A DNA stretch of 64,000 nucleotides, from NCBI RefSeq assembly GCF_000003815.2, contig NC_049979.1:27402782-27466781 (forward strand), written 5' to 3'. Numbering within the stretch: position 1 is the first letter of the stretch; every line of letters starts with the position of its first letter. A model generated the notes under the pieces. It was not told the DNA's origin. It was given only the letters and a program-made list of their open reading frames with translations, and searched no databases. Source of the DNA: Branchiostoma floridae. Lineage: Eukaryota; Chordata; Leptocardii; Amphioxiformes; Branchiostomatidae. The position numbers were made by a program, and so were the translations under genes. Positions 4,440 through 48,900 of the stretch are shown here, one piece after another.

Positions 4440-4615
4440 ATGCCACGTGATGACGAAAATGTTACCTAATGCCGGTAACGGCACGGAACGCTCTTTTTAT
4501 GGCTCAATTGGTCTGTTCAGTAATTTGTCTCAGAGCAGTCTCAGAAGCGCTCGGATAAAGCGGATTTTAAAGTTTGCCCAGTTTTAGGGACAAGGGAAAG
4601 AGGAACTTATAAGGC
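4440..4615 (+). promoter_or_regulatory. Candidate CIPC promoter with perfect E-box
   Basis: A perfect palindromic E-box CACGTG lies at 4444-4449, 167 bases upstream of the proposed ATG, followed by TGACG. CACGTG is the canonical CLOCK-BMAL1 site. There is no clear TATA box; GATAAAG at about 4554 is a poor match. The transcription start is not visible in the sequence. Confidence 0.4.
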
Positions 4616-4717
4616 ATGGCTTATGTTTTGATGGCCCCATACTATGTTCTTGGACATCCACCACCGGTCGTGTGCTATCCAGTGCCGGTGCGTGTTCCTA
4701 CGGTCTGTCTGACTAAG
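4616..4717 (+). CDS. CIPC: Putative first coding exon of the CIPC-like gene
   Basis: An ATG in reasonable context (AAGGCATGG) opens 34 codons, beginning MAYVLMAPYYVLGHPPP, that end exactly at an AAG/GTAACG donor in phase 0. The exon 2 acceptor at 7717/7718 (TTTGTTTCAG) is also phase 0, so the join is open. Phase agreement alone has a one-in-three chance, and the leader has no known homologue that I recognise. It may instead be a 5' UTR exon. Confidence 0.55.
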
Positions 4718-7700
4718 GTAACGATTTAACTCTCTTCTTGTACTAAGTTATACTATAGTAGGAAAAGTTTCTTTTGAAAAGTTTTAAAGGTGACCTACAT
4801 GTAAGCATTGTTAGGGTGTTAAAAGTGGAAATATTCCGGATAAGGAAATCTGTATGATATTGACATTTGCTGCATCGTATCACCACATTTACATCACTAT
4901 TTCATACTTTGAGCGGTTGAAAACACCACGGAAATAAATCGAACAAAGGAATCCTCTGATTTTTTTGGGAAAATTCAGCTCGCTTACTTGTACGGCATTT
5001 TGATTCATGAACGTCGGTATGGAATGAAATAGAGTTGCTTCCTTTGATTTGAAAAGTGCAAAAAAATAGGTTTGAAAATTGAAGTTCTAAATCCCTGAAT
5101 CAGACTGATATCGCTTTGGTTGCCTCTGACTCTGCATCGTATATGTATCGTCGTGTTTCAAACCGCTTCTTACTCCACTTTGGGACTGCGTAACAAGTGT
5201 TTCTGAATTTAAAGTGCTGCGGGTTGTATCAGATATTTAACCGATCAATGACAATGTTTAACTAAATGGGCTAAAACACTTAAAAGAACCAAACATATTG
5301 GAAAGACAAATCCTCACTGTTATAGTAAACGAGTAAATTGTTGTTATGATACTTATAGGTTAATATTGTTCATTCATGTCATAGTATGTAGGAACACTGG
5401 TTCCTCGAGAATAGTAATTTCTTAGTAGGTAAGGGTGTGCCCATGGTGCAACACGACTTGTTTCTTAGATTTAGATTTAAGACTGCATGCTGACATCAAA
5501 CTATCACGGGACAGTCGTATTCAAGTTCAATCAGGGATGTGTCTTTTGCAATTCAAAGCAGTTTTTGTTACATCTGACTGTCTGTACCTGAAGTTGAATT
5601 GTTCAATTAATTTTACCCCCTCACTTGCCAGCTTGAATCGCACACAAAGGCAGCAGGGAATATCTTACTGCAAATGAGGTGTAGATTTCCAAGTTCCGTT
5701 ATAGAAGCTACAGTTCTTGAGCTGTCTTCCATGCGAGAAGGATTGCAAATACCTAGTAGGGACCAAGTAATCTCCAGGCAGATTTACCGGTGGCATAAGA
5801 TAGTATCAAAGCTGGCTTCAGGAGTATAGCCAAAGGGATTCAATCGAGTCTACCGGTGGCTGACTCCCTTTGGTCGGCTTTACTCCTTTTGATACTATCT
5901 TATGCCACCGGTAAATCTGCCTGGAGATTAGTAGGGAGGCCCCTACTGTACTTGAAACCAATGAGAATAATACTGTCTATGATGATTGGACTAGTGCAAT
6001 TGAGAATTGCATGGGTACTACTAGTAGTCAAAGTGTGTTTGCTGTTTACCTTGCAGTTGGTTACTAAGATTTTGAGTTTGATCCTGGCCAAGTCATACCA
6101 AAGACTTTAAAAATGGCACATGCATGCTTCTTCTATGAATAGCACTGAGCACTTGGGAAAGAGATTCTCAATCGAGAATTGAACACACAGACAGCTCACT
6201 ACCTGAGAACAGACTAGCCCCCTAGCCTGCTGTAATGAATGCACAAAGCTGTGTGGCCCAGGGGTACAGAAGTAGAGATGGGAACTGTCTTATTCCCCAT
6301 TTGTTTGGTGTTAGTTTGGAAATCTGCATAGAGTGTTTGTACGGTAATAATTAAAGAATTATAGCAGAGTTCAGTATACCCAAGATTCAAGGCGAAGCAG
6401 TCTTTGCTTTTATTTCAGCAATCAGTTATTTAGCCAGAGGTTTTAAGGCAATGTCTGATACTAGACAGTATATTTAGACATTTCATTCTAACTACTAGTA
6501 CATGTATGCCAGGTTTGGAATGATAAGTCATATCATTTCCAATTGCCTAGTTGCGCTTTCAAAATTTTTATTTAGCAAGCGGATGTTCCCGACAGACTCC
6601 ATACCATAGTGCGCACTACCGGTAGTACCTCATTTACGGGGATTCTGCCCGCAAAAAAAAGATCGCAAACCAGATGGGTGCCGACAACACACCCTCCCAT
6701 TGGAATACTAAGTAATCAGTAGGTAGATAGTATCAGACTTGATGTATCGTTTGTACCATGTAAAGGAATGTTTCCTTTTCTTGCCACCAGCAATGTTGGA
6801 ACATTGCCAAAGTCATGTGCTAAGAGTGGAGCATACAATGTGAGATGTGTTGTTTTCTTCTACATGAAAAAATAATGAGTTTTTTTTTTTTGGGGGGGGG
6901 GGGTAGTGTAGATCTGTTTGTCTGTCTGTAATATTGCATCTGTGATATATAATATCCCTTCACCGCAAACTTGAAACACCGCCAACATTTTTCCATGGCA
7001 AATAAGGGACTACAGTGCATGGTGATACCGCAAACTTAAATCGCTGCGAAAAGTCATTTTTCCCGCTACGGCGAAGTTAAATCTCCGCGAACTTAAATGC
7101 ATTTACAGTATGCACTGTCACTACAGAGCCAGGAGGGGTGTGGCAAGGTCACCGTAAAGGTCAGACTCATGGGGAGTCACCGGAAGTACGTAATTACCAT
7201 AAAAACGGAGGTATAATTGTCTTGGTGTGTTTATCTGGTTGTATTTTTACCGAATATTTAGCCCTGGATGGGTTTAGATGATATTCTTGGGTTTTAGGAT
7301 GGGTCTTGGGAAGACGAATCTCAAGGTTGATTTTGGATCCCTGCTGTCCCTGATACTCACCGCAGCAGAACTTTCTGTATCTTTTGCCCAAGAAATGCTA
7401 CAGTGATGTTTTGGTACCTATGATGTCAGGGCAATTGTGATGTAGGTTTGGGCCCCCTGTCAGCATGCTCTTTAACTTGCGGGGTCACTTTTGTTTATTT
7501 ATACAATTAAAATGTTACTCATACAAAATGACAAACTTTGCATACTTGATGGGATTTTCTCATGTATATCTTTTGTCCAGAGAAGAGCTATCAGTCTGGA
7601 ACCCCTAGCAATTAATGTTGGAACTGCAGGAGTATTTTCAAAGATAGATAACTGAAGAAAGAAAACATGACTTCTAGTAGGGCAAAGTCTGATCTCTGAT

Positions 7701-10700
7701 TGGTACGTTTGTTTCAGGAATGCCCATGTTACCCGTGCACCTCTATGAGAAAGAGGCTTCTGGCGACCAGAATCATGGAGGAAGAAATGGACACTAGCAA
7801 TGACAGCGTTTCTGCAGTACCACCAGAGCTGACAGAGGGCGCTAGCGACAGCTATCTCGATGGTGAAGAGAAAAAGGACCTACCAGAGAACTCGAACAAG
7901 GACATGGGTGATACCAAGAAGGAAGAAGACCACAAGAACAATTTAGAGGAGAGGAGTAGCTCCAGCGATGCAGGGTCCAGCGATGGGTCGGGATGGGAAG
8001 ATGGCCAGACGTCGGACCCAGACAAGGACAAGTTCTCCGGGAACGGTAGCAGCGACAGCGGCATCAGCGGCCGAGGCTCCCCGGGGGGTGGGAACAGCAG
8101 CGGGGACGACACGGACAACACCGTAGGCAGCGCGGTCACAGATGTGACGTTTGTCGGTAAGTTTCAAATGAAGTCTCTCTGAGTTTTGGTAAAAAGTTGT
8201 AACATTCCAGTAAAAAATACTATATTTTCTATGGATCCCACCTCTTTCTATCATAGAATAGCATACATGGGACAGTCTGGAAGGCCTAGCGAAAGAAAAT
8301 GCTGTGTTGCCGGTTCAAGTCCTGAAAAAATCAGGGTCGTTCGGCAGTGTTTCTCTTCATTTCCAAAGAAGTGATCCAACAAATACAGTCTGTAACAAAA
8401 TGTAAATCAAACTGATATGCATCAGGCACTGGTATTTTTAGCAACATTATTGTAATTATCATACAGATAAACAAGCACAAAATGTATTATATAAACTGAA
8501 CAAAGTATGTAGGATGTCATCACTCATTTAGAAATTTTATGTCTTGCTTGTGGTCGACAGAAAAAAGGCTAGGGTCGGTTCTTGCTAGGATTGGTAATAA
8601 AATAAAAAATGGATTGGTAATAAAAAAATTGGATTGGTAATAAAAATAATAAAAATATAAATAATAAGAATTATAATAATAATAGAAATTATAATTATAA
8701 TAATAACAATAATAACTATAATTTAATAATATAAATAATAAAAATATACATAAGGATAATTGGTCAGGTAACTGGAAACACAGCACTTTTTCTAGGCCTA
8801 AGCAGTCATATGTCATGCAGTTAAACACATCATGTTTCATTTCCTTTCTGTCCACCATCACACAGAGGAAGACTCGAGAGGTTCCCTCCCACCCTGTCCT
8901 GACCAAGACACCAAGGGGGACTTGGACGAGGGTTCAGCCATTCAGCCGGACCAGGTAATAAGACATTTTTACCTTCTCCAAGGAGGTTCTGTTTTTGGGT
9001 GTGTTTCTGAATGGTATTATTGACTGAAGAAGCTGTAACTGGATGTTCGTGATAGACAGATTCAAACTGATAGAAAAAAGGGGGTAGATAGATCTGGAGA
9101 GGACAACAGAGGCACTGGTTGGATAAAGGAGGCCTTTAAAGTTTAAAATGCTTCATGTTTGGGACTGCATCTGTAAGAAAGCAGACACTTGCAGTATGCC
9201 TGTCATGTTTCTTGACACCGACTATGCTGATTAGATAGGTAAATATATGTAAACCAAGTCCATGCACGAAGCTGTAATCTGCATTCAAAAATGCAGTCTT
9301 GTACGTGTCTTTTTTTCTCAAAAAAATAGTATTAAAACAATAATGATCATTGATGGTAGCACTAAATAGGGGGTCAATACAAAGCAGCGACTCGTGCTGC
9401 AAAATACTGTAAATGTATTTAAGTTCGCGGGGATTTAATTTCCGGTAGCAGGAAAAGGGATTTTTCGCGGTGGATTTAAGTTCGCGGTAACACCATAGAC
9501 TGCAATCTAATATCATATTAGAAAAATGCTCGCAGTGGTTTTAAATTCGCGGTGAAGTGGTCACCGCGAAAACCGCGAATATTAATCCACTGTGAACATT
9601 TCTGCATTTACAGTAAATGACCTGTCCCAAGCAGTCACGGAACAGTCTATAAATTTTTACATAAAAATTAAGCTTCACAAAACACCAAAAATCAGGCTTG
9701 CTCCCTGAGGGTGTTGCCAAAAAGGGAAATATTCTTCTAATGATAAAAGGATACTGTCTGATGTTATAAATACATTTGTATCTTCAATTTTGTGTTTTTT
9801 GGGGAATGTTTTAAAGATTGTAATTGCAATAATTTATAGGAAACAGGACATTGATGTTGTCAGGATGAGGTTTATTGTCAACCATAGAATGCCTTATTCC
9901 CCTGTGTACTTAATAGTTTCATCCATCACACATGTTCTATGGTTAACCAAGGTAGCAGCATGGTGCCTATGTTAAAAATCTCCTTGCTATTTTACCTCTT
10001 TGATAATTATCATTTCAATGGTAGTCTTGGCAACTCCGCTAAGCTGCAACAAAATTAATGAGTACCGCAAATTGTCAATTATCTGTGGTTTGTGAACACC
10101 TGTTAGTCTCCACGCGAGGAAATGGACCCGCGACCAATTAGATGTATAAGGATGCATGTGAAGTCTTTGTCACGTGTACGGCGGTAAAAGCGACCTGACG
10201 GTTACTTCAGTGAATCGGCAAACCACTAATCTACATGACTGTAGCATATTGTGGTTGCATCTTTTTTCTTGCTGTTCATCACAAAATGGTAATCATTTTT
10301 GTCTTTGTGTGGGCCAAATCTTGTGATTTGTAATCTGGAATAATGACGATCTGTTCTATCACAGCATGTGGTTGTACTGTATACAAGAACTGTTGATTTA
10401 GATGGAGCTAGATTTGCTAACGCAGGGGAAAGCAAACGGCTTTGATGTTAGAAGAGGTCTTGCCAGAGAGCTACAATTGCGTATGCTGCATATTCTAGCC
10501 ATGAGTTATCAATAATTAACATGATTATAGTAGGAAACAAGCAAATTTTGTCAGACAAGTCCCTAAATATCACATTTTACAGGAATATTGAGGAAGATTA
10601 TTTCACAAATCTGCGTCATTTTTTATTGTTGACTGTGGAATCCTGATTATGCAAGTAATGGTGAATTACAGTGCTTGATGATGCGATGTATGCAGGGCTT

Positions 10701-12499
10701 ATCTCTGTCTAAAGCAGTATGCAGGGAAATTTGCTGTGCCTATGAATTAGACGCTAATGAGTACTTGACGCACAGTAGCGGATACGTAGTCTCCAAGCAG
10801 ACCCAACGGTGCCTTAGAGATAGTATCAAAGCTGGCAAAGGAGAATAGCCGGCCAAAGGGAGATAGCCGGCTAAGGGAGTCAAACGAGTGCCGCTATACT
10901 AAGTCCCTGGCTTTGATACTATTTCTAAGGCACTGTTGGGTCTGCTTGGAGACTAGCGGATACGCAAAAATCAAGGCAAGCTCCATCATTCCTATCCCAT
11001 GGATACGATGGTGCAAATATGTTATAATTGTGTACTGATGGATACAGTTTCATGACTGGTTTATCCATTTCAACCACATGACTTGCATAATTATTGTACA
11101 CAAGTACATGCTGAAAGGCTGAAGGCTGAATTGTGAGGTTAGCATAAGTCAATAAGAGGATTATTCTTACAAATTGTTTTTTTTTAGATAGAGTGACATC
11201 AAAACATTGTGATATGACTGGCAGGGCAATTTAAGCTTCTCATGAATAAACAAAGGTTCAAACAAATAGTGTAAAAAATTTAACAATAATAGGTGATAAA
11301 AATGTGGTTTTCAAGATGGTACTATATATGTGTCCATAAGTAACTGTTGATTTGAAAAAGGTTAAGTTCAAGTTTTACGGATTAATTTCAAGTTCAAGTA
11401 CAACACGTGTGTGTAATGTGTCTCTGCATGGTTCTGTGTGGAAACAATGTCTACTGTCATACTGTGACATACAATCTAGGTATACATGTAGGTATAGTTC
11501 TGTCATAAGTAGCCTTTGATTTGGTTTCAGTGTTAATTTTCTTGTCAAATTAATGGACTTAGATTTAGACTTACATGTAAGGTCCCGTTTATGATGCAAA
11601 AATCCAGATGGTCTTATCTGTTTGTCCTAAAAATCTGACAGTAAACTGTTTGCATTTTGCGTTCACGCTGCAAACTTGCAGCCACAGGCAAATTGTTTCA
11701 GTTCTTTGAAAAAGGCATGGTGATGCATAGAAATGTGACCTCTGACCCGTTAAGGTTGTTGTGATTTTGCACCATCACTACTTCTGTATCAGATTATTGG
11801 TCTTCGTTTGGATCTGAACCAGTGTTTTGCTGAAGCTGCGTTCCCATGCTCATATCTGATATATGTAACTATATATAACCCAAGTAACAGCTTCGTTGAA
11901 GGATTTTCTGAAAAACATGACTTGTATGACACTGTTATTGACAGAGATATAGTTTTAGCCACAGTCCATGACGCTTCTCTTGTATTTTCCAGACCGACAT
12001 GACCACGGGCGAGTCTGTGAACTGCATTTTACGCCACTACACAAGCATGGTGACCACATCCATGACTTCAGCCAAGTCCTCCATTCCCGCGCAGAGCTAC
12101 ATCACTCCGTGTTTCCAGCCGTTCGGCATGGAGTTGCAGGGAACGAGCACCCACTGTACCGCCTCCTACCAGGGCGGGAACCTCCAATCTGCGCCGATTC
12201 CATCGACGGGAATGCCAGCGAGACCGGACGAGAAGCTTCCGACCGCGAATAATCCCATAGCCACGAAAACCAGTATGAAGGACATCCAGCAAGCCAAGAT
12301 GAAACGTTACCAGCAGGTTTTGGAACAGTTGAGAAAATCGGGGTTGTTCGAGGTGACGTTGCGGACTGCAAAGCTCATGCGTCAGAGTAGACTGATTCAG
12401 GCCCAGATCAACGCGCTGCGTGCGGACGCACAGAGGCTCTCGCAGTCCGTGATACAGGACTACCCATACTCCAAGACAGCGGTGACCAGTGAAAGATGA
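4616..12499 (+). CDS. CIPC: CIPC-like CLOCK-interacting pacemaker protein (4 exons, 378 aa)
   Basis: Coding exons are 4616-4717, 7718-8156, 8866-8954 and 11993-12499. They total 1137 bases and stay in frame through all three GT/AG introns (phases 0, 1, 0). In vertebrates CIPC binds CLOCK and inhibits CLOCK-BMAL1 transcription in the nucleus. The call rests on the C-terminal helical block at residues about 311-366, where KSGLFEVTLRT followed by LMRQ matches the vertebrate family's KSGL-x-E-x-TL-x-T-x-x-L-x-RQ pattern (recalled, not searched). Residues about 55-200 are acidic and Ser/Gly-rich with an SSDSGISG stretch, resembling the DSGFSDGSS stretch of human CIPC. Human CIPC is about 399 aa, so length fits. 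Exon 1 encodes a Pro/Val/Tyr-rich 34-residue leader without a known domain; it is in phase, but the ATG at 7745 or 7775 in exon 2 is an alternative start. The family call is firmer than the exact N-terminus. Confidence 0.82.
5768..5930. mobile_element. Foldback element, perfect 43-bp arms
   Basis: TAATCTCCAGGCAGATTTAC and the rest of a 43-base arm (5768-5810) recur perfectly inverted at 5888-5930. It is related to the element at 10787-10955 (TAGTCTCCAAGCAGA...). It lies in intron 1 of the CIPC-like gene. Confidence 0.85.
6958..7110. mobile_element. Truncated TA-flanked MITE, copy 3
   Basis: One end is intact (GCATTTACAGTA at about 7099-7110); the other is missing. It lies in intron 1 of the CIPC-like gene. 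Confidence 0.75.
8585..8755. repeat. AT-rich simple repeat (TAA/TAAT type)
   Basis: Almost pure A/T sequence with repeated GGATTGGTAATAAAA at the start and (ATAATAA) runs after. It explains the Tyr-rich antisense frame over this intron 2 segment. Confidence 0.9.
9405..9615. mobile_element. TA-flanked palindromic MITE, copy 4
   Basis: Both ends are intact (TACTGTAAATG and GCATTTACAGTA), in intron 3 of the CIPC-like gene. Confidence 0.88.
10787..10955. mobile_element. 169-bp foldback element with perfect 9-bp target duplication
   Basis: Ends TAGTCTCCAAGCAGA and TCTGCTTGGAGACTA enclose imperfect inverted arms. GCGGATACG occurs at 10778-10786 and again at 10956-10964. A 9-bp duplication points to the Mutator-like superfamily; that class call is inference. 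Confidence 0.88.
11993..12499 (+). CDS. CIPC: CIPC terminal exon with the family's conserved C-terminal helix
   Basis: The acceptor is a pyrimidine-rich tract ending in TTTTCCAG, and the exon continues codon phase 0 from exon 3. It encodes residues 211-378 and ends at TGA. The first 90 residues are Ser/Thr-rich and low in recognisable motifs. Residues 311-366 form an amphipathic, Lys/Arg/Gln-rich helix that starts with KMKRYQQVLEQLRKSGLF, the signature region of the family. In vertebrates this C-terminal region is predicted coiled coil and involved in CLOCK binding (from memory). Antisense open frames over this exon are shadows. Confidence 0.85.
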   Translation, partial: TDMTTGESVNCILRHYTSMVTTSMTSAKSSIPAQSYITPCFQPFGMELQGTSTHCTASYQGGNLQSAPIPSTGMPARPDEKLPTANNPIATKTSMKDIQQAKMKRYQQVLEQLRKSGLFEVTLRTAKLMRQSRLIQAQINALRADAQRLSQSVIQDYPYSKTAVTSER

Positions 12500-18930: not shown

Positions 18931-21900
18931 CTGCAAAAAAATTGCATTCAGACATCAGTACAATACATTTACAGAGGAAGGGCTAGTAAACGAGAGCCTC
19001 CTTGTAAATTTTAATACTGTAAATGCAGAAATGTTCGCCGTGGATTAATGTTCGCGATTTTCGCGGTGACCACTTTACCGCGAAATTAAAACCACCGCAA
19101 ACATTTTTCTATTGTGGTATTAGACTGCAGTCTATGGTGTAACCGCGACATTAAATCCACAGCGAAAAGTCCTTTTTCCCGCTACCGCGAAATTAAATCC
19201 CCGCGAACTTAAATGCATTTACAGTATATCATGCTATTGAAACTAGTTTAAGGGCTGTTTGGACACTTCCGGGTGTGACCCCTTCGTGGGTGGTTCCCAG
19301 GGTATTTTTGAGCGCGGCCGGGCACCAGGTTGACTTTAAGTCAGACTTGAAATAAACACAAACAAAAATATCCGTAAACACAAACAAAAATATCCGTAGA
19401 CATAAACAAAAAAACCGTAAATAACAACAGAAATATCTGTTAATACAAACAGGTGGTGTTGGTAAATACACACACTGTGGCAGACACACACAAAACAAAA
19501 TTTCCATTTTTCCCGGAAGTAACTACAAAATGTATCCTTGAAGTCTCAGAAGTTCACCATTTTAACTGGTAGATGAAAAACTGCAGTGCGCACAGGAAAG
19601 GTCTATAACGTCTCCAGAAAAAACACGAGGGTTCATCGACTTGAGTAGCTTTACAAACTTTTTGATTGCTACCTTCCAGCACAAATAAACTCCTCTTTCA
19701 AGAAAATTAGTCTGCAACTTGCAGAAAAACAAAATTCATCCACTCACGTACAAAGTCTTTGATGTCTCTACCTCCAAGCCTCTTACTTGCAGAAAAACAA
19801 AATACCATACCGCCTACTGCCACGTCATTATTCCAGATAAAAGCAAAAGTCAGCACTTCGTCAGACTCATTCTCTCCGTTTTATACACTGCGCCACGGTT
19901 GTCAGCACAGTACGGTCGACAAGAATGTACGAGCAGCAAGCAGAGCCTGTCCGGACCCCTTTCTCTGGCCCCGGCAGCGGCCAAACCAGTGAGCCACCGT
20001 CCCAACCCCCTCCTATCTACCAGAGCGTCTCAAGCGGGCGAGTCTGCCATGGCAACGGTGCTTCTGACAAGTCGCAAGAAGAGCCAGAAACGTCCACTGA
20101 CACGTACGAAGAAGCCGAGGCAGTGAAACGTGACGCAATGTTCACTGCAGGTAACCAGCGCTTTTGTTACTTGCCTTCTTTAGTTCCATCAGTATTGAAT
20201 GTGTGTTTATTTGTAAAGTAATTCTAAAAATTAGTTAGATATCAGGTTTAATTTATATTTCATTAGTTGACATTTTGTGATTAGAGAAATTGCAAAGAAA
20301 TTAGGTCTACCAATGTAGTTACCGGCTCCCTAAAGATTTCTTTTTAAATCTGTAAACACAAATAAGGCCACACCAATATATAATTTTATTGGTTATTTGT
20401 GGTTATTTTCGACGATGCATACATGTATATCACTTATTCAAAATTGGGGCTTTGCTAAAGTAATCAGGGACCACCCTAAATATTGATTTGTTAAAGAACA
20501 TAAAAGGTTACATAAAATGTGCCAAGGAAATCTGAAAACTTATTATTTGTTAAATCTGTTGTTATCTATGTTGTGTAACTTGAGTAAGCCCCTCAATCTC
20601 TACACCCCAGACTTTTTGCAAAAAACAATTTTTATTTATTTTTCCACTAGCCTGATTAAATCTTGCTTATAGCAGCCCGCCAAACATCCGCCGGCGGGGA
20701 GGGGCCAGTTACAGCCCTGGACAGCAGAGTTTGTGTTACACAGACTATTTTTCCACCTACCAGTCCAATTTTTTTCTGAAAAACCTGAGAATCAACAAAT
20801 TAAATTGGTGTGGCCTAAGTAAAAAAAAAAAAAAAGAATCAGAATGTTTTCAAGAAGGAAGGGTACCTGGGTATATTGTCGCATTTGGACCGTTCATACC
20901 CGTGTTGGTGAATCTGGATTAAACCAGGCACAAATAGAATTGATCCATATTAATAAACCCTGATATGATTGTTCTGAAATGTATGTGAAAATAATCTTTC
21001 TTCTGGAAAAACTCTTGCTTCTAGGTGGCTAATGCTAGGGTAATGGTTACAAACCTTTATAATTTGGTATACCGTTGTTCATTTAGTCATTTGTTTATTC
21101 TGGGCCATTTAGATTTCCAAATGAAGACAACTTTCCTCCAAACATTTTTTTTCTTGCAAGTTCGCACCAGTTTTACTTGGAGTTTCTCAAAAGATGTTAA
21201 CATCATCCATTTAATCGAATCAATCGAAAGCCCTAAACTTAAATAAATGATTGTCTCTGCAGACCGCACGTGTCCGGGTGGAGCAAGCGGTCGCCGTTCT
21301 CACGCTCTCTGTAGCTTCATCCGCTCCCACCAAAGCTGCATCGCGGCCGGCATTGCTGTCCTGCTCAGCCTTACCGCTATGGGACTCGCTCCTATGACGA
21401 TTATCAATAAAGAGGTACGACTATCTTGCAGGCTTTTAGCTGGGATTTTATAATAGGGAGTCCAAACGTATTGGTGAGTCGCAGTAAGTGACTATTGTAG
21501 GGGGGTCTTGGGGCATCCACCTTCCATGGTGCAGAGATTTGATGATTTTAAGTTAAAACAGTGCAAATTCTAAGGTATTCAAAGAGGCAATAATACTGTT
21601 ACAGATGTCACAGTAGAAGACTGTGACCACAGATGACATGGTTGCATCCCGGGTCAATCAGAATTTCATGCTTGTCAGAGAATTTTCTCCCCAGTATAAG
21701 GTGTCCAGGGGCATCAAATTTCTTGTTATTCTAAGAAAAGTGCGTCCAGATGATGCGTTGACGCATGCCTGGCTAAAAGCCTGCTATTTTGTGTCACTTA
21801 AACTGCTATTTTTATGCCATTTTTGTTGCTATTTTACTGGCAAGGCTATCAAACTCTCTAGTTTAGTATTCTGACATACTTTTTTTAGGAAATATCCCAA

Positions 21901-24900
21901 CTGTCCACCGCTTTCGACGCACTGAAGCACTACCTTGACGACATGTCCACCATTGTTAATGCCTTAAAGCACTATCATGACATGTCCAACACTGCTGACG
22001 CCTTGAAACGCGGTCAAGACGACATGCGCCAACTGCCCACCACTGTTGACACCTTGAAGTGCGATCATGGCAACATGCATCAACTGTCCACTGCTGTCGA
22101 TGCCTTAAAACGCCGCCAAGACAACCTGTCCACCACTGTTGACACCTTGAAGCGCAACCAAGACGACATGCACCAACTGACCACCACTGTTGACGCCTTG
22201 AAGCGCAACCAAGATGACATGCGCCAACTGACCACCACTGTTGACGCCTTGAAGCGCCACCAAGAAGACATGCGCCAACTGACCACCACTGTTGACGCCT
22301 TGAAGCGCAACCAAGATGACATGCGCCAACTGACCACCACTGTTGACGCCTTGAAGCGCAACCAAGATGACATGCGCCAACTGACCACCACTGTTGACGC
22401 CTTGAAGCGCAACCAAGAAGACATGCGCCAACTGACCACCACTGTTGACGCCTTGAAGCGCAACCAAGATGACATGCGCCAACTGACCACCACTGTTGAC
22501 GCCTTGAAGCGCAACCAAGATGACATGCGCCAACTGACCACCACTGTTGACGCCTTGAAGCGCCACCAAGAAGACATGCGCCAACTGACCACCACTGTTG
22601 ACGCCTTGAAGCGCAACCAAGATGACATGCGCCAACTGACCACCACTGTTGACGCCTTGAAGCGCAACCAAGATGACATGCGCCAACTGTCCACGACTGT
22701 TGACGCCTTGAAGCATGCCCTGGACAAGGAGCGAGATCGAACAACCACTTTGGAGCAGCGTCTTGAAGAGATGAGTAAGAAGTTACTATATCTGTATGAT
22801 TGTGTACTATTTGTGATGGCGTATATATGGCCGTTTATTTAGAAAAACACAGGTGATCTGTCACTTCTTCCTGAGCACAAGGGCTATCTAACACACCCAA
22901 AAGTCGTGACCATAGCTTGTTCAGAACACTAGAACGCAAATGTTCCACTGCAGTACCAAGAGAAGCCGCTAGGGGGCAAAAGTCTAAACATTTTCAGTTT
23001 TTTTCACACCCTACAAACACACTAAGCATGAAACCAATCCTTTCAGCCATCCTTGAGTTATTTTGTTGACCAACAGACAGACAAATTCTACTGAAAACGT
23101 AACGTTCCATAATTACTTTATGAAGGTAATAATACATAACTACATCTACCTTGCGGCAATCACACCTTTTTTTCAAATTTCATGTACCAGAAAATTGCCA
23201 GGAGGGAGATGGGTCATCCTACCGAGGAACAGTCTCTGTGACCAAGACAGGCAAGACGTGTCAGCGCTGGGACACGCTGCTGCCCCATTTTCACGTTTAC
23301 AAGGATCTTTTGCATCCGTCAGACGGACTGAAGGAGAACTACTGCCGGAACCCAGATGACAGACATACCGAGGGAGTTTGGTGCTTCACCATGGATCCCA
23401 GCAAGAGATGGGAGCTGTGTGACGTACCAGTTTGTGGTACTGTCTGAGTCTGACGTACCAGTTTGTGGTACTGTCTGAGTCTGACGTACCAGTGTGTGGT
23501 ACTGTCTGAGTCTGACGTACCAGTGTGTGGTACTGTCTGAGTCTGACGTACCAGTTTGTGGTACTGTCTGAGTCTGACGTACCAGTTTGTGGTACTGTCT
23601 GAGTCTGACGTACCAGTGTGTGGTACTGTCTGAGTCTAACATACCAGTTTGTGGTACTGTCTGAGTCTGACGTACCAGTGTGTGGTACTGTCTGAGTCTG
23701 ACATACCAGTGTTTGGTACTGTCTGAGTCTGACGTACCAGTATGTGGTACTGTCTGAGTCTGATGTACCAGTGTGTGGTACTGTCTGAGTCTGATGTACC
23801 AGTGTGTGGTACCGTCTGAGTCTGACATACCAGCGTGTGGTACTGTCTGAGTCTAACATACCAGTTTGTGGTACTGTCTGAGTCTGACGTACCAGTGTGT
23901 GGTACTGTCTGAGTCTGACATACCAGTGTTTGGTACTGTCTGAGTCTGACGTACCAGTATGTGGTACTGTCTGAGTCTGATGTACCAGTGTGTGGTACTG
24001 TCTGAGTCTAACATACCAGTTTGTGGTACTGTCTGAGTCTGACGTACCAGTGTGTGGTACTGTCTGAGTCTGACATACCAGTGTTTGGTACTGTCTGAGT
24101 CTGACGTACCAGTATGTGGTACTGTCTGAGTCTGATGTACCAGTGTGTGGTACTGTCTGAGTCTGATGTACCAGTGTGTGGTACCGTCTGAGTCTGACAT
24201 ACCAGCGTGTGGTACTGTCTGAGTCTAACATACCAGTTTGTGGTACTGTCTGAGTCTGACGTACCAGTGTGTGGTACTGTCTGAGTCTGACGTACCAGTG
24301 TGTGGTACTGTCTGAGTCTGACATACCAGTGTTTGGTACTGTCTGAGTCTGACGTACCAGTATGTGGTACTGTACGTCTGAGTCTAAAATGATGTTTCTA
24401 AACTTTTGTGTTAAATGCACCATGCATTCCTTAGCGTATGAGACCACTATGAATACCTCAGTTTTCTGATTTTATGCATATTTTCTTACTGTATTCTTTT
24501 CTTACTTTCAAAACTTTCTTATTGTATGCTAATTTTCTTGATTGTATACTTAGGTTTGGGATATAATACTTGTATTTTCTCCTCCTGATTGTATACCATT
24601 TTTCTGATTGAATATCAGTTTTCAGATTGTATACCAGTTTTGTGATTGTATATATCAGTCTTCTGATTGTATATATCAGTTTTCTGACTGTAAACTTGTT
24701 TTTCTAATTGAATACCAATTCAAGGATTGTATACTGGTTTTCTGATTGAATACCAGTTTTCTTCATTTTCTAATTGAATATTAATTTTTTTGATTGGATA
24801 CAATTTCTTCAAATTGTATACCATGACCAATTTCTAAATGTACTCTTAGTTTTATAATTGTATACCATTTTTTCTGATTCTATATCAGTTTTCTGGTTGT

Positions 24901-36900: not shown

Positions 36901-39900
36901 TTTTTGTCCATCACAGGGGACGGAATGGGCAAAAATTTTTTCCGTCCCCAGCTGCAAAAATCCGTCAAAGGACGGAAGGATGGGTGCTGGCTACAACAGT
37001 GTCAGGTCAATTCCCCGTCATTCACTTTCCCCGTCGGTGGTCTGGATGTTTCCCGGTCAAGTTATGGAGGTTATTACAAGTTATTACAAGTCACAAAAGT
37101 TTTGTCAAGGGTTTTATCAAATTTCTTTTTATAGAGACTAGACCTTTGTGAGTTTTTTTTTACCTTGGATTACCGGCACTCAACTGATGCACGAGAAATG
37201 TTCGCATTGCCAGCTCCGCCATCTTGGTTATTTAAACATGTTGCAAACCTCTCGTGGGTACCTTTTACTGACTTTGTAGTTTGTATGAGTACATGGGCAG
37301 ACTTAAACCAAACCCTAACATGAAAAACAACTGTTTGTGTATTTCAAAAAAGATATGTTGGTAGATTTACGAGGGATTCGGACTGAAAGTGTAATCACTC
37401 GGACGGTATGGTGTTGTCCAACTGAGGACGGAAACTATTTGCCGCTACAAGCTGTCTGAAAATGCTTTCCAAGTAATGAAATATACAATCAAGTAGTCCC
37501 TTAGGGTTCCGAACAAGAAAGATGTAATGTTTCTTCAAAATTTGTGCAAGAAGCACGAAGGGAAATATCCTGACGGGGAAAGTGAATGACGGGGAACTGT
37601 CCAGAAAACGTTACAACCCTGGTGGCAACCCTAAGATACCGTCAAGCCTCCCCATCTACGTGCAAGCAGTCGAACCCTTGCCTGACAGGGAACAACAGAC
37701 AATAAACTGGATAATGAGTGGTTTGCAATGTTCTTGCACGAGGGCTAATTGCAACTTGAAACAGGAATTATAGAAAATCTATACATACGGTGAAAGATAA
37801 CAATGGTGACATGTGACTATTCTAATAGTAACACCTGGTAAGGATTTATTTTTGGAGGGAGTGCGTGCAGGCTACGTGCCTCACTCTTTCCTAATGAGTG
37901 GGTTTTGTGAAGTTAACAGGGCTGTACAGTAGCTTTCGCCAAGAAACGTTTGGCAATTATCCATCAAAATAGCTCTTTTCATTAATGTTGCTTAATGGCA
38001 TCCTCCTACGCACGGTCCACAACCGGCTAATCGCCTACGTGAGGACCCTGCTATCTGAAGGGCCACCCCCGGTTACTGTGAGCATCGCTACAATTTGTAC
38101 AAACCAGCTGTCAGTCAATCAGAGAATAGGCCTTTCTTGGACTTTCTGTTTACGAAAGCCATCTCACAAAGACCGCTGGGAAACTATCAGCCAATCATGT
38201 TACGTCTTACATTACCTCCGATCCCCAACTGCTGACTGCGCATATAAGGGTAAGCTCATTAACATTTATAAGCAGGGCGGTCAGTAACTGATCTGAGTGC
38301 ACCAGACAGCAGAAGTGACCACAAGGAGTTTCGACGTGACTGTGGTCCCTCTGCATAGGAAAATGCTCAATGGAAACAGAAAGACATCAGTTGACAAAAA
38401 TATCAAATGACAACCTGGGCTCAGACATGTAAAGGGCCATCCCCTGCCAAAGACTGGGGCACAATTTGTAGAGAAAAAAAAGTAGAGATGACCACTACTA
38501 TTTTTTTGTTTTGCACTGTTCCTGCACATCGGAGTATCAAATTCAGCATTCCCTTATACTTAATTATAGATAAACACAGGGTCTTAAACATTGATGGAAT
38601 AAAAATAGCTTCATCGCATATTTCCAAAAAAATGTACCTGTAAAGCTTCTTTTCTTCCTCCAGAGTCCAGGACGTCTCAGACGCATCTCTACCCTGTTCT
38701 TTTCCCTGTCTTCCTTTGCAGTCTTCAGATGACTTTTTGTCCGTCTTTCTTTGAGACTTATTTGTGTCCTGTGTGCTTTCACACTTATCCGTGGCGTCAT
38801 CTTCTTGTTCAGTTGTACTTGTTTCAGTTTCCTCTGTCTTCTTGTTACCTGCTCTCTTCTTCCTTTGGTAATGTCGTTTTCTTTTGCCTGGATTTTTTTG
38901 GGCTTCACTTTCTTCCCTTTCTGTTTCAGTGTTATCAGGCATACCTTTAGCTTGCTCTTCTGCACTGCTTTTGTTGTGTGCAACTGTGGATTTTTTGGTG
39001 TTTCGCAGACCCATCCTGTTACCTCTCTGCCTCGCAGTTGGTTCCTCCTCACTCTCTCCCATGCTGCCTTCAGCAACATCTTTTATTCTTTGTGACGTTC
39101 GAGACGTGCCTTGACTGGCGGAAGACTGCGCTCGTTTACGGCCGCGACCTCTCCTCGGACGTCCCCCCTTACCTGTTTCTTCAGCCTGACTTTCCTCATC
39201 TTCAGTCAGATTCTTGTGTTTGCTTGGAGCTTCCATCTTTTCGTTTGTCTCTGTGTTCTCGGAACGTTCTCCGCTGACGGTAAGGCTTTCTTTCTTGCTT
39301 GGCCTCCCTCTTTTCTTGGTCGTGGTAACAACAACTTCTTTGGCTGTCTGCACATTACTGGTTGACTCCTCTTTCCTTGGTCTTCCTCTTCTTGCCCCTC
39401 CCCTAGTGGCGACCTGTTTCTCTGTAGAGGGTTGTTGTTCAACGCTTGCGCCGTTGTTTCCACCGTCTTTACGTGACCTACCCCTTCTCTGTTTGCTCTC
39501 GGAAGTCTTTCCTTTCCTCTTGTCTTCTGATTCACATTGAGGAGGTTCTCGAGTCTTTGGCTCCTTCTGGTGTGAAGACTGGTCTCTCTTGCGAGCCGAT
39601 GACTGGTCTCTGATGTCCTCTTCCCCACGTTTGGAACTCTACAATAAAAGGAAAGAATCGGATTTTGCAGTTTCAAACAAGCGTTTTCTAGAAAGGAAAA
39701 GCATGAGTTGGGTAATTGTCAAGGCAAAAGAGTGGTGCCATATTTAAAGTGGGAGATTTTACAACGGGGAAAATTCTAAAATTTGAAGACAAACAGGACA
39801 ACTGAGTGTGAGTAAGAGGTGTTTCAATCTGGCATTATTTTTTCAAAATCGAGAAACGAGCAATCAAATTGGTACATGTATTTCATGCTGTGCAAATACT

Positions 39901-42900
39901 ACTGTAAATGCAGAAATTTTCGCAGTGGATTTTTATTTGCGGATTTCGCGGTGGCCACCGAAAATATTCATAAGACTCCATTTTCCTGCTGCCGCAAAAT
40001 TAAATCCCCGCGAACTTAAATGCATTTACAGTATACTCCTATACTATACCTTGAAAGGATCGGTTGGTTTTGGAGTGCTGAGGATGTCTTCAGGTACCCC
40101 CTGTGGTTTCTTGTTTCTTGTGTTTCTCCGCAGCCTTGAGTTCTGCACATTACTGAGTGCCTCTCTCCCCTTCGGTGCCCCAGGTGTGTCTAACAGTATA
40201 TCTGTTCTGATAACCGTGTCATTCTCCCCCTGGACTTCCTGTCTGGGTGTCTTCTTCACTGTCAGGAGAGTTGTGTCTGGTTCTGACTGGTTGGATCTGT
40301 CCCGGGGAATGCGTGGGTCTTTGAGCTGGGCGTTTGCCGTGGCGGTTTTTGTCGCACGCCTGCTGGCAGGGCGGCGCTTGACGGTGCCTGGAGTTCCGCT
40401 GAGGTAAAACAAACAAGACTTCTACAACAACAGCAACCACTACCAACAACAACAACTGTGTTCATTGGGTGACGATCACGGACAGTCATCCTTCTGACGC
40501 CTTATCGACCACTACCAACAACAACAACTGGTTACACCAGATAGCAACATCAAACAACACCAACAGCAACATTTTACAGCCAATAGTTTGCTCAAAATAC
40601 TTTTTAGGTTACATGCAACATTACAGGTTGGTGGCGTCACAGTAAATACAGCAGCTGATTCGGAAACTGGCACATTCACCCAAAATGTTCTTGTTAGAAG
40701 CAAACAAAGCATAATCATTGTAATGTAGATACAATTGCAATTTTTCATGTTTGCTTTTCTGCTTCTCAAAAAAAAGTATTTCTTGAGCTGTGCTTCCAAG
40801 TTGCAAATCGGCTGCTATGTTTACTATGAAGCCACAAACAGAAACTAACTTGCTTACTTGGCAGCAGGAGCTAAGAACTGGAAGGATGGTTTGGACAAAG
40901 CTGGTTTGGAAGATTTGACGTCCAATAATATCAGAAGGGTGTATATTTTGTACGAATGTCTTTGTTCATTGAAAGATAGTACTGCTACTTCTGAATGTAA
41001 ACAGGAAATGACACACGTTTTTTACATGCCCAGCACTTAGATTGGATCAAACATGACAGTTCTAGTAACATCTACCATAACTGTTCACACCTACCTTCTA
41101 CTGTCTTCTAGGTCATCTCTGTGTACAATCTGAAAAGGAAGAATCAGCCACATATCACAACACTGTAAGGGCAACTCATTGATACACCAACCATGTCTGT
41201 GCTTCTTAAATTTATATTCTGTATGGATCACATAACTGGTAAACTGTCCCAAACACAAATTGTACATGAGGCAGCCCACTCTTAGGCCATGTTAATATGA
41301 ATATCATGGATGACATCAGCATACACATCAACTTTAGTCCAATTACAAAATAAAAATCTTTTCTACCATACTGTGAATTGTACAAAGCTACTGCAAATAT
41401 ATGCTGGCAAAGTTGCAAAGAAATATCAGAAAATGTTGTAGAATGCCGAAGTAAAAAAAAAAAAATGTTACAGAACAAAAACCAAGAATCTATTGATTTG
41501 TTTATTACTATACCATAATTGTTCAACCTTCCTGACCAACTTATGTTTCCTACTGAATGAATCTTTTTCTTCTTTCGCATCCTTTAAAGTTTAATCAATT
41601 TTAGGGTTGTATGTCATCAATATAATCAAATCAACATGGCCTGATGGTAAAAATTCTGTATATATATATGTACACACATAATATACCTTAGAGAGAGAGA
41701 GAGAGAGAGAGAAAGAGTGAGATAGCTGTATGCAACTGATAATACGGTACATGTACAGAATACTGTAAATACAGAAATGTTCGCAGCGGTTTCATGTTCA
41801 CGGTTTTTGCGGTGGCCACTTCACCACGAATTTAAAACCACTGGAACAGTGGAAACATTTTTCCAGGACAGTAAGAGACTACACAGCATGGTGCTACCGC
41901 GAACTTAAAACCACCGCAAAAAGTCCTTTTTCCTGCTACCATGAAAGTAAACCCCCACTAACTTAAATGCATTTACAGTATAACTGCTACAATGTAACTC
42001 ACCAAGCCTTTGACAGTTCTGAAGCTGAGAAATGCGGGTGACATGGCCAGCTCGTCACTACTGGTGCAGTGGATCTTGACATTGTCTTTCTCAATGACAA
42101 CCCTCTGGTTGGCCCACCATGCCATCCTGGGCTTTACCACACGTCCGCTACGCGACCGCCCCAAGGAGCCCAACACGTTTTGTACCGAGTGTGGCGGGAC
42201 GTCGGGGACTAGGAACAAATGGAAATTCAGTTCATCATTTGGGTGTAAAAGTCAAAAGTAATTCATTTGCTGTGGAACTCAGGGCTAAAGACACTACCTG
42301 TATCACTTTACTTTCAAAGTTGCATGTATAAATTGTTTACAATTCTCCTGTTTTTGATTATCATAAAACTTTGTGGTAAATGGTAATAAATGCACAATGG
42401 CCAGGTGCTCCTTACAAAAAAATGGTTACTTGTGCCAAATAGACTGTATATCAATGGCGAGATGCTCCTTACATTTTTTATGTTGAGGTTGTCACTTGTA
42501 CAGGTTTGACTGTGTATCAACGGCCAGGTGGTCTTTATCAAGTTTATGTGGAGATATTTACCAGTACAGGTTTGACTGTATATCAATAACCAGGTGATCC
42601 TTATGTAGAGGTGGTCACTAGTGCAGGTTTGAATGTGCATCACGTGGTCTTTGTAAAGAGGTGGTCACTAGAACAAGTTTTGACTTTTTTGATAACGCTG
42701 GGTGCCACTGTGTAGAACTCAACACTGTGATTGACTTTGGAACACTAAAGCATGCATACCAGCTCTTGTTGACTCTCTCACTTTGTGATGAACCTTCAGT
42801 TTGTTGGTGTTCCTCTGTCCTTGACCTTGCCTGCAAAAGAGGAGGCAATCAGAGATGGCACACTTTGCCCCCAAACTAATTTTGGCTTCTGTATTCAAGT

Positions 42901-45900
42901 GATGATGTCAAGAGTGAATCAAAGGTGGAAGAAAGATGGAATCTACCACCGTCGAGTTTCAAAGGGGGTTGATTGACACTGATGTTTAAGTGCCACCTTT
43001 GATTCACTCATGACATCATCACACTTCCAGATTCCAGTACATCATCACAGTGAATCAGTCATCTGATGAAGGTTGGCAGGGTTAAATAAAGGTAAAAACA
43101 AGTCTGACTGAAAAAAAAGTGTTGGAAAAAAGCTCAAATTGTACAACTATAGTGGTAGCACTTCTAAGAAGGTTTCTAAGATCTAGATAAAATATAACCC
43201 ATCTTTGAGCTTCAACCAATGGCTCTCAACAAGACAGTAAAACTCACTTTTCTGAGGTGCTGTTGGCAATGTCCTCAAGGACCTCCTTCCAATTCTCAGG
43301 GAAGCCAGTTTTGAAGGCTTTCGCAATCTTGGCGTGGAATCCTGCAGAAAAACAGATGTTAGATAAATTTGAGGGAGGACTTATCAATAGACAAGAAATG
43401 AGTATGACACACAAGTGACATTGTATGCAAACAATACCACTATTCAATAACTAAGAAGGATTTCTTTTATTTTGAAACTTGTAAAAATTGGGGGTTTTTT
43501 TCAGATAGACTTACTAAGGTTGTCTATGTTTGGACACATCCTCAGGATGCCACAAGACACCCCTGCACAAAAAGCCCTTGAATTTGCCATACTAGACTCC
43601 AGCAGATACAAGACACTGTGTCAACCTACTCAGCTTGCTAAAAGCAGACCTAAAGCACAGAGACAGAGAGCAAGCCCTACAACAGTAAAGAAACTCCAAC
43701 AGCTAAGGAAGCTTGCAGGATGCAAAGCACAATGGAGAAAGATGAAGAAAATCTAAATGCAACTCCAGGACTCTTCAAAGACTGTAGGTGCAGAACACAG
43801 GGAATGATGAAGATGATACTTAGTATTGATTTGATCTTCCAGTTCATTCTAGTGACGCTGAGAAGAGTGATGGATGTCACTCAAAAATCTGGAAGTAATT
43901 CTTCGAATTTTATATTCGTTTTGAAATATCGTTTACTTGGATGTCTAATCTTCGAACGAACTAATCTTCATAAACATGATTGCCTACCTTGTTCTAGTAC
44001 CATAGACCTGTCTATGAACCCTCGGAGCCTGTACACGGTACCACTGCCAGTAACCACCATACGGGATGTCACCCTCTTCACAATGGCAGTGCTGTGCCAA
44101 TACTGGTGCTCTGGGTCTTGCCTGTAGTAATACACATAAGAACATCTTACACTTAGTCAGTAAACAAAACAGACTAAATGTCTTCTCAGGTTTCAAAGAC
44201 AATACTGTTATGCTTATGGTACCTTGAACAAGACAGGTGCATGTATTCGTTCTGAGACAGAAACCTTATTTTTTGTCTCTCACAAAAACAAAAATGAATG
44301 AATAAGATTGCTCCACAGATACCTTACACTTAAAAGGTGAAAAAGGGTAAAGGCAGTCCCATAGCCTTCTGTAGGCAGTTGATAAGCTTTGTAAAATTGT
44401 TTTACGCATGGTTTAACAAGATGGAAGAAACTATGCAAACATAGAAGGAGCATAGCATAATTTTCTACTCCATACACTTACGTGTACCCCAAAGTGGGCA
44501 TAAATATGCAAGTTCATTCTCATTGTCCTTGTATAAAATCTGGGAAGACTTATTTGTTCCCACTACAAATGTATATCCTTATAAAGTTCCAAACAAAATC
44601 TGACCAAGACAAGGAACTTTTTCAAGAAGCTAGCATGTACTTACTTGCGATGGCCCTCAACCACGATGTCTGTAGACTTTCTCATTGGTTTAATAAACCA
44701 GTCGTAGAGAATGTGCTCCTTAAACGGCTTCACTGCAGTCTATGGAGGGAAATACAAAAAAGACTTAATGATAATGATATTTTCCCTTTTCTGACTTTCT
44801 TGTACTGTACTAGTCTTGAGCTAGTACTGCGTACCTGAACTCATCTTCAGATTCAGGTCCAGATTCAGGTCCGGACATACAAGTCTAAACCTAAACCCAT
44901 AGCATATGTGTGCTCAACATACTCAAATTAGTTACATGATAAATTGCATGCTGGCATGAATTTTACTTTTTAATTGTACATTTAATTTTAAAAGTATAAA
45001 TTCAAAATTAGATACAGGCAGTATTATTAAACACAAAGGCTCTGTAATTTACACAAAAGCAACAAAGTTTTTGTCTTTTTCCAGCACAAATTTCAAGATC
45101 CATGGAAGGCCTTCACATGGTTAAGAATGAAAAGGGGAATACAAGTGAGAGATTATCTTGGCAGACTTTGTACCCGAGTAACCCAACATTTAGGCCACAC
45201 CGATTTAATTTCTTGGTTCACGGATTCGCTCGCTCCTATTTTTTGGAAAAAAAAAATAAAAATAAAAATTACCACTCAGCAAATTTTCACCATAAATGAA
45301 ACCATTCAACAACTTTCTAGTGTAGCAAACATAAAAACTGACACTACTTTTGTAATTTTCAACAAACAGGAGCTGTTACTGTACAGTAATAGTCTTTTGT
45401 ACTTTTTTCAAGCTGAAAACTTTTTATTCTTTACGTTTTGGATTAGCCCTTACCTTTACCCCAACCATTTTACAATTTTTATTTTTATTTTTATTTCGCC
45501 CTCTCGCTCCATATTTTTTATGAAAAAATCCGTGAACCAAGAAATTAAATTGGTGTGGCCTTAGGCTTCTTTTTTTTAAGTGAACCTAAACATTTTAAAA
45601 GTCCAATTCCATGCCTGTGTACAGGTACATAGCACCAGAAGTAGCTTAAATAGGTAAATGTCAACCTCTATATCTTGGACTATACATTGGCATTGCTGTC
45701 AACTAAACATTTCCTTAAATGTTCCCATGCATAAAGATACAAGCATTAAGCAGCCTCTGTGGATACCACAAACATTTCTTACATCTTTCTTCGGGTTGGG
45801 GGCAGCTGGTTTCTCTTGCCTTGAAGTATCAGTTGTATCGACTGACACATTGTCTGCAAAAAAAAAGAACACATCATGGTAGGATGATAAAACATCAACA

Positions 45901-48900
45901 ATCATCATGTGGCTTCACAAATAGAATGTTTTCTGATCTCAAAACTGCCAAATAGCCTGTCAGGTTAGATGTTGATCTGGGCTCAAAATTCATTTTTGGG
46001 ATTAGGTGCACTGGTGCACCCAGCTTGAAAAATTGGGTGCACCAAAAAATGTTTGGGTGCACCACTTAAATTCAAGTAACAACCTAATAATAAAACTTAT
46101 CAAATTCTTAAACAAGTACCATGACAGACATTTTTATTATCTTTCTAACACTTAGATGTCAAGAATATGATGTATACTCAAGTATACTTTGATATCTTTC
46201 CATACATAAACCTAAGAAAATATTTGAGTGCACCCTGTGCACCCAATTTTGGGTACACCTGGGTGCACGTGCACCCAGTATTTAGAGCCCTTTTGATGTA
46301 GCATTGATATACAAATGTACTCAGTACTGTACCTATGTTATCAGCCCAGGCGATACTCTGTGAACTCTGTGAAAGTCGATCATTCGGAGGCTGGTCCATT
46401 TCCTGCTCCTCCTCCTCATCCATGTCCTCTTCAGACATGTTGTCATCTCTGTCTTCATCAAGAGTCTTCTCTTCTACTATCTCTCCATCCATTCCCTCTG
46501 CATTCATTTCCACGTCAGTGTCCTATATAAATCCACAAAATATTCTTTATATAAAGCCATATACTAGTATACATAGAAACAACAAAACTCCATACCTTTA
46601 CAAGTCACCAGTCTTTGAATTTTTACCTGTCCTCTAAATATTCTAGAATATTGTCAGATTTGCTAATGATGTTTTAGCCAATCAGAGAGTGCTTCCTGCT
46701 ATGATGTCATTTTATCACTCATTCGTTGCTGTTCACCAACTCACATGCAAAGCTACCAGGTAATTGCTAATCTTTAGAGCAAATTGGGAATCTAGTTCAG
46801 ACATGGAGAAAAAAAGCCAAGTTGACTTGTTGACCTAACAGTTTCAGTTGTATTCAGTGTTGGTATAAATTATACAACCTTACGTTGTCTGCAGTTCAGT
46901 GTAATAAAACCTAAAACCAACAGACTTTGGAGCTTTAAATGCTCTTCTGACAGACCTTGGTTCTCTTGTACCCTTGATGCCCATTCTCATCAGCTTCCTC
47001 GATGGTACCATCTGTCTCGTTCATCTTGATGGTATCATCGTCACTATCTCTGTCGTCCATACTGTCATCTTCCTGAGACTGATCAGAAAAGACATTTACA
47101 TACAATAAATGAATGAAAAATATGACATATAATATATAAAATATGACATCTATTGCACCTGTACTTATCATACCTGAACAATCTATAGAACTAATGGACA
47201 CCACTTCATGTATAACTTTATCAAGATATTTGATATAAGTTCTAGTTAGAGTTTACCACATACATGTACCAGGGAATTTTGGGGTGCACCACTTAAATTT
47301 ACGTAATAACCTAATAATAAAACTTAGTTAAAAGCTACCAAATTCTTAAACAAGTACAATGACAGACATTTTTATTATCTTTCTATCACTTAGATGTCAA
47401 GAATATGATGCAAAAAACCAGATGTATACTTAGTCTAGTATACTTTGATATCTTTATATACATAAACTTCAGAAAATATTTGGGTGCACCCTGTGCACAG
47501 AAAATAATTGGGTGCACAGCTCCAATTTTGGGTGCACCTGGGTGCACATGCACCAGTATTTTGAGCCCTGGTTAACATCGATATTATCTTACAAGTTTAG
47601 GTGACAGAACACATAGACATACCTTGTTGGTTGTCGCTGTGGTGTCATCACCGAGCTGGGAGGAAAAGCCCACGTCCGGCGCTCGTTCTGTCGAGGGCGG
47701 AGAGACGATGAGGTCGTCAGGGTCATGTTGTAGCAACATCTCCTCGTCGTGGGATTCCAGCCAGTTCATGACCTTCTGTTTGCGCGCCCCCGCGGTCTGT
47801 CTCTCCCTCCCTCCCGTAGGCTTGGAGCCTGCGTCCTTTGGCGCTAGACCAACCGAGGGCTCTTTCTGCGGCTCTTCGCTCCTGCTTTGCTGTACATCAC
47901 TCGCACTCTTGTCAACTTCAGACGTAGGTCTGCTCATGTTTTCCTTGTCCTCACCCGTCCCTTGTACCGGAAGCGAGCCGTTCTGTAAATCGGGCGCCGG
48001 CGGATTGGTACGATCTTTCCTGACGGCTTGCCTGGCGGAAGAGGACCCTGGGGACATGATTTGTTCCAGCTCTTCGAACGTCTTTTTTTGTCGCATGGCT
48101 GCGACAAGTTTCGCCACCGGTGAGGCTTTGTACACCACGCGGCTGGCGGGGGACTTGAAGGCAGGAGCTGTATGCCTACTGCTCGCTATGCCACTAACAT
48201 TTGCTTTGTCCTGTAATGAAGGGCGGTGAAAGAAAAAAATATTGCTCTCATCTTCAAAATGAATATACATTTTTTATCCAAAAAAAATGAATATTACCAG
48301 TTTATCAATTTTCTTTTCTTTCCTCAAAATCTGTCCTGTATTCAGCATCTTTTGTATCGCATGCTTGATAATTGTTATGTTCAAATACAATATTCAATCT
48401 CCCCATGTACAACTGGATAGAAACAAGGTTTACTTCTGGATGTTTTGAGTGACATCCATCTAGTGATGCTGAAGATAATATTTGAATACTAGAAGACGCT
48501 GAAGATAGTATTGTTTACCTGGATGTCTAACCTTCATTCATAAATGGGATAAATTAGGGCTGGGTACCGGTACAGAAAATTCAGGTCCAGGTCCGGTTCA
48601 GGTCCAAAGGATCAGGTCCGGACCTGAACCTGGACCTGATTCAGTTTGACTCATACCAATGGTCCATTTTACTACAAATAGATCTGTTTGGTGGAGTATT
48701 AGACTTACACTGGCGTTTTAAAATCCTACAACGCTAACTGCACCTGCTGTACGATTGGCTGTAAAACTTGGTAGAAATTACTATAAACTCTACACTACTT
48801 CACTCTTGTTATTTTCTTCCACCTGCTAGCGCCAAAACGTGTGAATGCCTGATAAAATAATCTGTTAATTTTCTAATCCGTCCAACATCCGGTCACCTAA

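Follow-up and report, generated by a model that had tools for sequence, protein, structure and literature searches.

A gene near the beginning of a 64,000-nt stretch of Branchiostoma floridae DNA (contig NC_049979.1; hereafter the window) raises the question of whether amphioxus has a homologue of the clock repressor CIPC, a protein held to lack invertebrate homologues in a view that goes back to Zhao et al. (2007; cited here by title). A first-pass annotation of the window had proposed such a homologue, with the signature CIPC helix in the last exon and an N-terminal part in CIPC style. It had further argued that, if the DNA came from amphioxus, the family would predate vertebrates and a CLOCK-directed repressor would have been present in the chordate ancestor.

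Structure of the gene

The gene lies on the + strand, with its ATG at 4616 and a TGA stop codon ending at 12499, and its four coding exons encode a protein of 378 aa:

4616..4717, + strand: coding exon 1, residues 1-34; begins with ATG; donor AAG/gtaacg; identical to NCBI isoform X1
7718..8156, + strand: coding exon 2, residues 35-180 plus base 1 of codon 181; contains an acidic Ser/Asp/Gly-rich block
8866..8954, + strand: coding exon 3, remainder of codon 181 through residue 210; matches the NCBI model
11993..12499, + strand: coding exon 4, residues 211-378 and the stop; contains the CIPC C-terminal region

The splice sites are good and join the exons in frame: the exon 1 donor is followed by the acceptor tttgtttcag/GAA, exons 2 and 3 are joined through GTCG/gtaagt and cacacag/AGG, and exons 3 and 4 through CCAG/gtaata and ttttccag/ACC. 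In a search of 5.8 billion proteins, the translation was 100% identical over 100% of its length to "uncharacterized protein LOC118419039 isoform X1" of B. floridae. The coordinates given in the first-pass annotation were thus exact, its four exons being in frame and equal to the NCBI isoform; the amphioxus origin on which its argument depended is confirmed by this identity, which rules out a vertebrate contig. Relatives over the full length are a B. lanceolatum protein labelled "protein starmaker-like" (85% identical) and one from a B. floridae x B. belcheri record (82% identical), and all three amphioxus proteins carry a precomputed PF15800 domain.

The C-terminal region and CIPC family membership

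When the protein was compared with Pfam, the CiPC family (PF15800) matched residues 262-363 with 50.2 bits (cut-off 27; E 4.7e-13), the alignment covering profile positions 227-326 of 338. The next families had E-values of 0.11 and 0.12, under their cut-offs (DUF7615, a weak match, had E 0.11), and no unrelated coiled-coil family fitted better than CIPC. The helix KSGLFEVTLRT...LMRQ, at residues 325-341, falls within exon 4, so that the signature was indeed where the first-pass annotation had placed it. In the 513-Mb assembly PF15800 matched one place only (50.9 bits), by a six-frame search that ran exon by exon and could therefore miss an intron-broken copy. In the PDB, a single-sequence search gave 5vji_C, "CLOCK-interacting pacemaker," as the nearest entry (E 1.2e-4), followed by a poly(A) polymerase at E 0.25. 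Another chain of 5vji is CLOCK, so that the entry represents CIPC bound to CLOCK, and its 44-residue CIPC fragment is identical to the amphioxus protein at 17 of 44 positions, including SGL-E-TL-T.

When the large database was queried with nothing but the amphioxus protein, in full or by its final part, the three amphioxus proteins were the sole matches, which may be because seeding requires exact five-residue words. With the 44-residue 5vji fragment added to the amphioxus sequences, a profile search that scored only the 7999 candidates sharing the most words yielded 170 proteins with E ≤ 1. PF15800 was present on 120/120 of the matches listed (the best 120 of 170); the named non-amphioxus proteins among them were from mammals and birds, and no other invertebrate CIPC was seen there, as far as the proteins are named. 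Since the added fragment is itself CIPC, this search is not independent, and a control profile was built solely from 117 non-amphioxus proteins, the named ones being from birds and mammals. Scanned against 1639 ORFs of the window (stop-to-stop, 25 aa or longer), the control profile selected the exon-4 ORF alone at E ≤ 10 (37.1 bits, E 1.8e-10). The real protein scored 37.0 bits with this profile, compared with 7.4 bits for the best of 2000 shuffled versions, and a profile-profile comparison with 27 of the 117 proteins gave E 1.2e-8 over 54 columns with 37% identity. The match is therefore reciprocal, as the 117-protein profile leads to exon 4 alone and the amphioxus sequence leads to CIPC first in both the PDB and Pfam. 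Taken at the level of sequence, the CIPC identity is well supported by the C-terminal region; homology rests on the C-terminal ~100 residues, outside of which nothing is demonstrably homologous.

One might ask whether the resemblance is a chance or convergent coiled-coil likeness without homology, given that the matching segment is short, helical and charged and that other helical proteins also gave weak E-values (the poly(A) polymerase and DUF7615). We regard this as highly improbable, since PF15800 is eleven orders of magnitude ahead of the next Pfam family, the shuffled proteins fall far below the real one and the 17 shared residues of the 5vji fragment include the SGL-E-TL-T pattern; for practical purposes these comparisons have already refuted it. 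Alternatively, the gene model may be partly wrong, with exon 1 or exon 3 being alternative or non-coding and translation starting in exon 2. There are 14 in-frame splice combinations within the scanned ranges, although the chosen one is exactly NCBI isoform X1, and the label "isoform X1" suggests that LOC118419039 has other isoforms listed. However, exon 1 is identical at 28 of 34 positions across the three amphioxus proteins, and the NCBI model contains all four exons, including the less conserved exon 3 (17 of 30 positions identical), making an error of this kind improbable.

The N-terminal part and the acidic block

The first-pass annotation had also counted an acidic, SDSG-containing N-terminal style in favor of CIPC. 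This resemblance proved no better than that of shuffled sequence: the best stretch against an N-terminal CIPC profile had -1.2 bits, a score equaled or exceeded by 459 of 1910 scored shuffles (2000 were made), and a profile-profile comparison gave E 0.16 (probability 0.4%), with E 0.44 for the reversed control. The top alignment of that comparison, which lacks significance, places RSSSSDAGSSDGS against ADSDKDSGFSDGS. Neither the SDKDSGxSDGSSE block nor the conserved central region of bird and mammal CIPCs showed significant similarity to the amphioxus protein, and N-terminal homology was dropped as evidence for CIPC. Within amphioxus the picture is the following:

7949-8155, + strand: acidic Ser/Asp/Gly-rich block, residues 112-180

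In this block 66 of 69 residues are the same in all three amphioxus proteins, compared with 59 of 65 for residues 302-366, so that within amphioxus it is as constrained as that C-terminal stretch. It had no significant similarity to other CIPCs when assessed with the N-terminal profile and shuffles.

The C-terminal helix and the Asn/Ser position

An AlphaFold2 model contains helices at residues 39-60, 305-326 and 328-369, with most of the remainder unstructured; helix 39-60 is the sole secondary structure in the exon 2 region. Confidence is low for the model as a whole (mean pLDDT 53, pTM 0.27); block means of pLDDT are 88-96 over residues 311-360 and 67 for 361-370. The last helix is of most interest here:

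12344..12469, + strand: putative CLOCK-binding helix, residues 328-369; CLOCK binding is proposed from the solved complex

Besides the gene and its family membership, the analysis shows a helix modelled with high confidence where the CLOCK-bound fragment aligns: helix 328-369 covers the stretch that matches the CIPC fragment of 5vji, an agreement that concerns homology and fold and not binding. Read by hand, without structure coordinates, its putative heptad core consists of L328, V331, T335, L338, S342, I345, I349, L352, A356 and L359.

At position 342 all three amphioxus proteins have Ser, whereas 117/117 non-amphioxus proteins among the matches listed, the named ones being from birds and mammals, have Asn. 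We take this Asn to be the polar core Asn341 of mouse CIPC, which makes the polar core Asn of the helix absent from amphioxus CIPC. In work by Hou and colleagues (Hou et al. 2017), the CIPC Asn reportedly lies in the middle of the mouse CLOCK-CIPC bundle, where it makes a buried polar contact with two Gln residues, one from each of two CLOCK helices, and it is said there to be conserved in fish, flies and other invertebrates. The missing Asn is not decisive for family membership, because it is not a Pfam criterion. Ser342 could still form a hydrogen bond, or amphioxus CLOCK may have changed too. A stronger proposal, to which we give rather little weight, is that amphioxus CIPC has lost the buried Asn and that either the CLOCK core co-evolved or the helix turned to another partner; if this were true, the loss would serve as a natural experiment on which part of the repressor interface is indispensable. 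The change from Asn to Ser makes a simple binding test worthwhile.

Clock genes and E-boxes

Clock, Bmal and Period genes are all present in B. floridae according to PMC4066832, with Period expression higher in the light phase and no significant light-dark difference for BfClock and BfBmal. Upstream of the CIPC gene one E-box was noted:

4444..4449, + strand: E-box CACGTG, ~170 bp before the ATG; a weak candidate

CACGTG occurs 12 times in the window where 10.7 occurrences are expected, so it is not enriched and the copy at 4444 is only a weak candidate. Given this chance frequency, we dropped it as a sign of clock control.

Other features of the window

Several further features were recorded in the window:

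5763-5935, intron of the CIPC gene: inverted-repeat element, arms of 48 nt, 96%
10787-10955, intron of the CIPC gene: inverted-repeat element, arms of 63 nt, 84%
21889-22839, + strand: repeat ORF of 317 aa with near-identical repeats (RNQDDMRQLTTTVDALK); scores with many coiled-coil families
23133-23444, + strand: Kringle-domain exon (PF00051, 91.6 bits)
43971-44156 and 43247-43450, - strand: SANTA domain (PF09133), 37.5 and 24.6 bits
62031-63340, + strand: Lys/Glu-rich ORFs, resembling stathmin by eye; none passes a Pfam cut-off

By eye, the two inverted-repeat elements have AGATAGTATCAAAGCTGGC in common and are MITE-like. The SANTA domain is split over two exons of what is seemingly one multi-exon gene, represented by ORFs at 38424-48273 on the - strand. 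By eye, 41976-42251 contains a CENP-C-like motif and the start of 38424-39638 (same strand) is SANT-like; neither ORF has a Pfam match, and the gene looks like MIS18BP1/KNL2. An Rfam scan of the window at the gathering threshold gave 0 matches.

Proposed function

Our preferred reading is that the gene is the amphioxus CIPC orthologue, apparently single-copy, and that it probably acts in the way described for the mammalian and fly proteins. CIPC would then be disordered over most of its length, with its C-terminal helix packing on the coiled coil formed by the exon-19 segment of CLOCK; once there, it would lower CLOCK:BMAL transcription at E-boxes, providing negative feedback. Binding to CLOCK, repression and rhythmic expression of the amphioxus gene are predicted here by analogy with its relatives. 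Several observations count against this reading: the confinement of demonstrable homology to the C-terminal region, the Ser at position 342, the low overall confidence of the model, the finding of amphioxus proteins only when the amphioxus sequence was searched by itself, the lack of a light-dark difference for BfClock and BfBmal, and the loss of Nematostella CIPC rhythm in constant darkness. Even for mammals, "clock repressor" may be too strong a term, because Qu (2015), by its title, reports that Cipc loss in mouse alters Per1 expression with circadian rhythms unchanged.

That mouse result, as titled, would also fit a true CIPC orthologue whose main role lies outside the clock, its helix binding another coiled-coil partner and its acidic block being lineage-specific. 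Such a role would be consistent with the Ser in place of Asn in the helix, with the C-terminal region being all that amphioxus and other CIPCs demonstrably have in common, and with residues 112-180 being near-invariant in amphioxus (66/69, vs 59/65 for residues 302-366). On the other hand, the Drosophila orthologue is described as an inhibitor of CLK:CYC in PMC8635995, which cites Rivas 2021, so that targeting of CLOCK is reported in flies as well as in mammals. We therefore think a main role outside the clock unlikely, and retain that of a CLOCK-directed repressor as the working proposal.

Comparison with known CIPC proteins

The claim that an amphioxus gene would overturn the absence of CIPC from invertebrates does not stand, because cnidarian, urchin, mollusc and fly relatives are already in print; the correction can be found in PMC4476465, PMC8635995 and PMC11271600. 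The first of these (2015) describes CIPC-like proteins in Nematostella, Acropora, urchin and Aplysia, for which it states CLOCK binding to be unknown, and the last puts forward the coral CIPC as belonging to the core clock genes. A commentary (PMC11078541) discusses Nematostella CIPC as a candidate repressor of CLK and notes that its transcripts cease to cycle in constant darkness; in the main text of the paper commented on (Aguillon 2024, PMC11093582), CIPC occurs only within the reference list. Homology of the cnidarian and fly proteins, if real, would place the origin of CIPC before the chordate ancestor. The literature searched contained no relevant paper joining CIPC with amphioxus, or CLOCK-interacting with Branchiostoma, and among the matches listed for lamprey, sea urchin and mollusc circadian biology Cipc did not occur.

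With invertebrate CIPCs in print, the amphioxus gene adds an unnamed member to a known family and leaves the family's known age unchanged. Its significance is modest, the find being real but expected, since relatives have been reported in sea anemones, corals, flies, sea urchins and molluscs. It does assign a likely function to an unnamed amphioxus gene, and it supplies the cephalochordate member missing between the invertebrate CIPCs in print and vertebrate CIPC. As a 2025 review (PMC12285964) still repeats that CIPC is vertebrate-only and invertebrates have none, a well-supported chordate outgroup is useful.

Compared with vertebrate CIPC (KIAA1737, Pfam PF15800), the amphioxus protein has the same C-terminal helix, [KR]SGL-E-TL-T...L..Q being found in both, and a similar length (378 aa vs 399 aa for the protein P0012). 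It differs in its N-terminal and central regions, which have no demonstrable match, in the tail past the helix, which by eye has no correspondence, and in having Ser where the vertebrate helix has Asn. Drosophila Cipc and the CIPC-like proteins of Nematostella, Acropora, Strongylocentrotus and Aplysia are likewise invertebrate CIPC relatives, compared here through their published descriptions. Closest of all are the amphioxus records themselves: LOC118419039 ("uncharacterized") is the same gene and the B. lanceolatum "protein starmaker-like" its closest relative, and for both the CIPC identity, absent from their names, is held in the PF15800 domain record.
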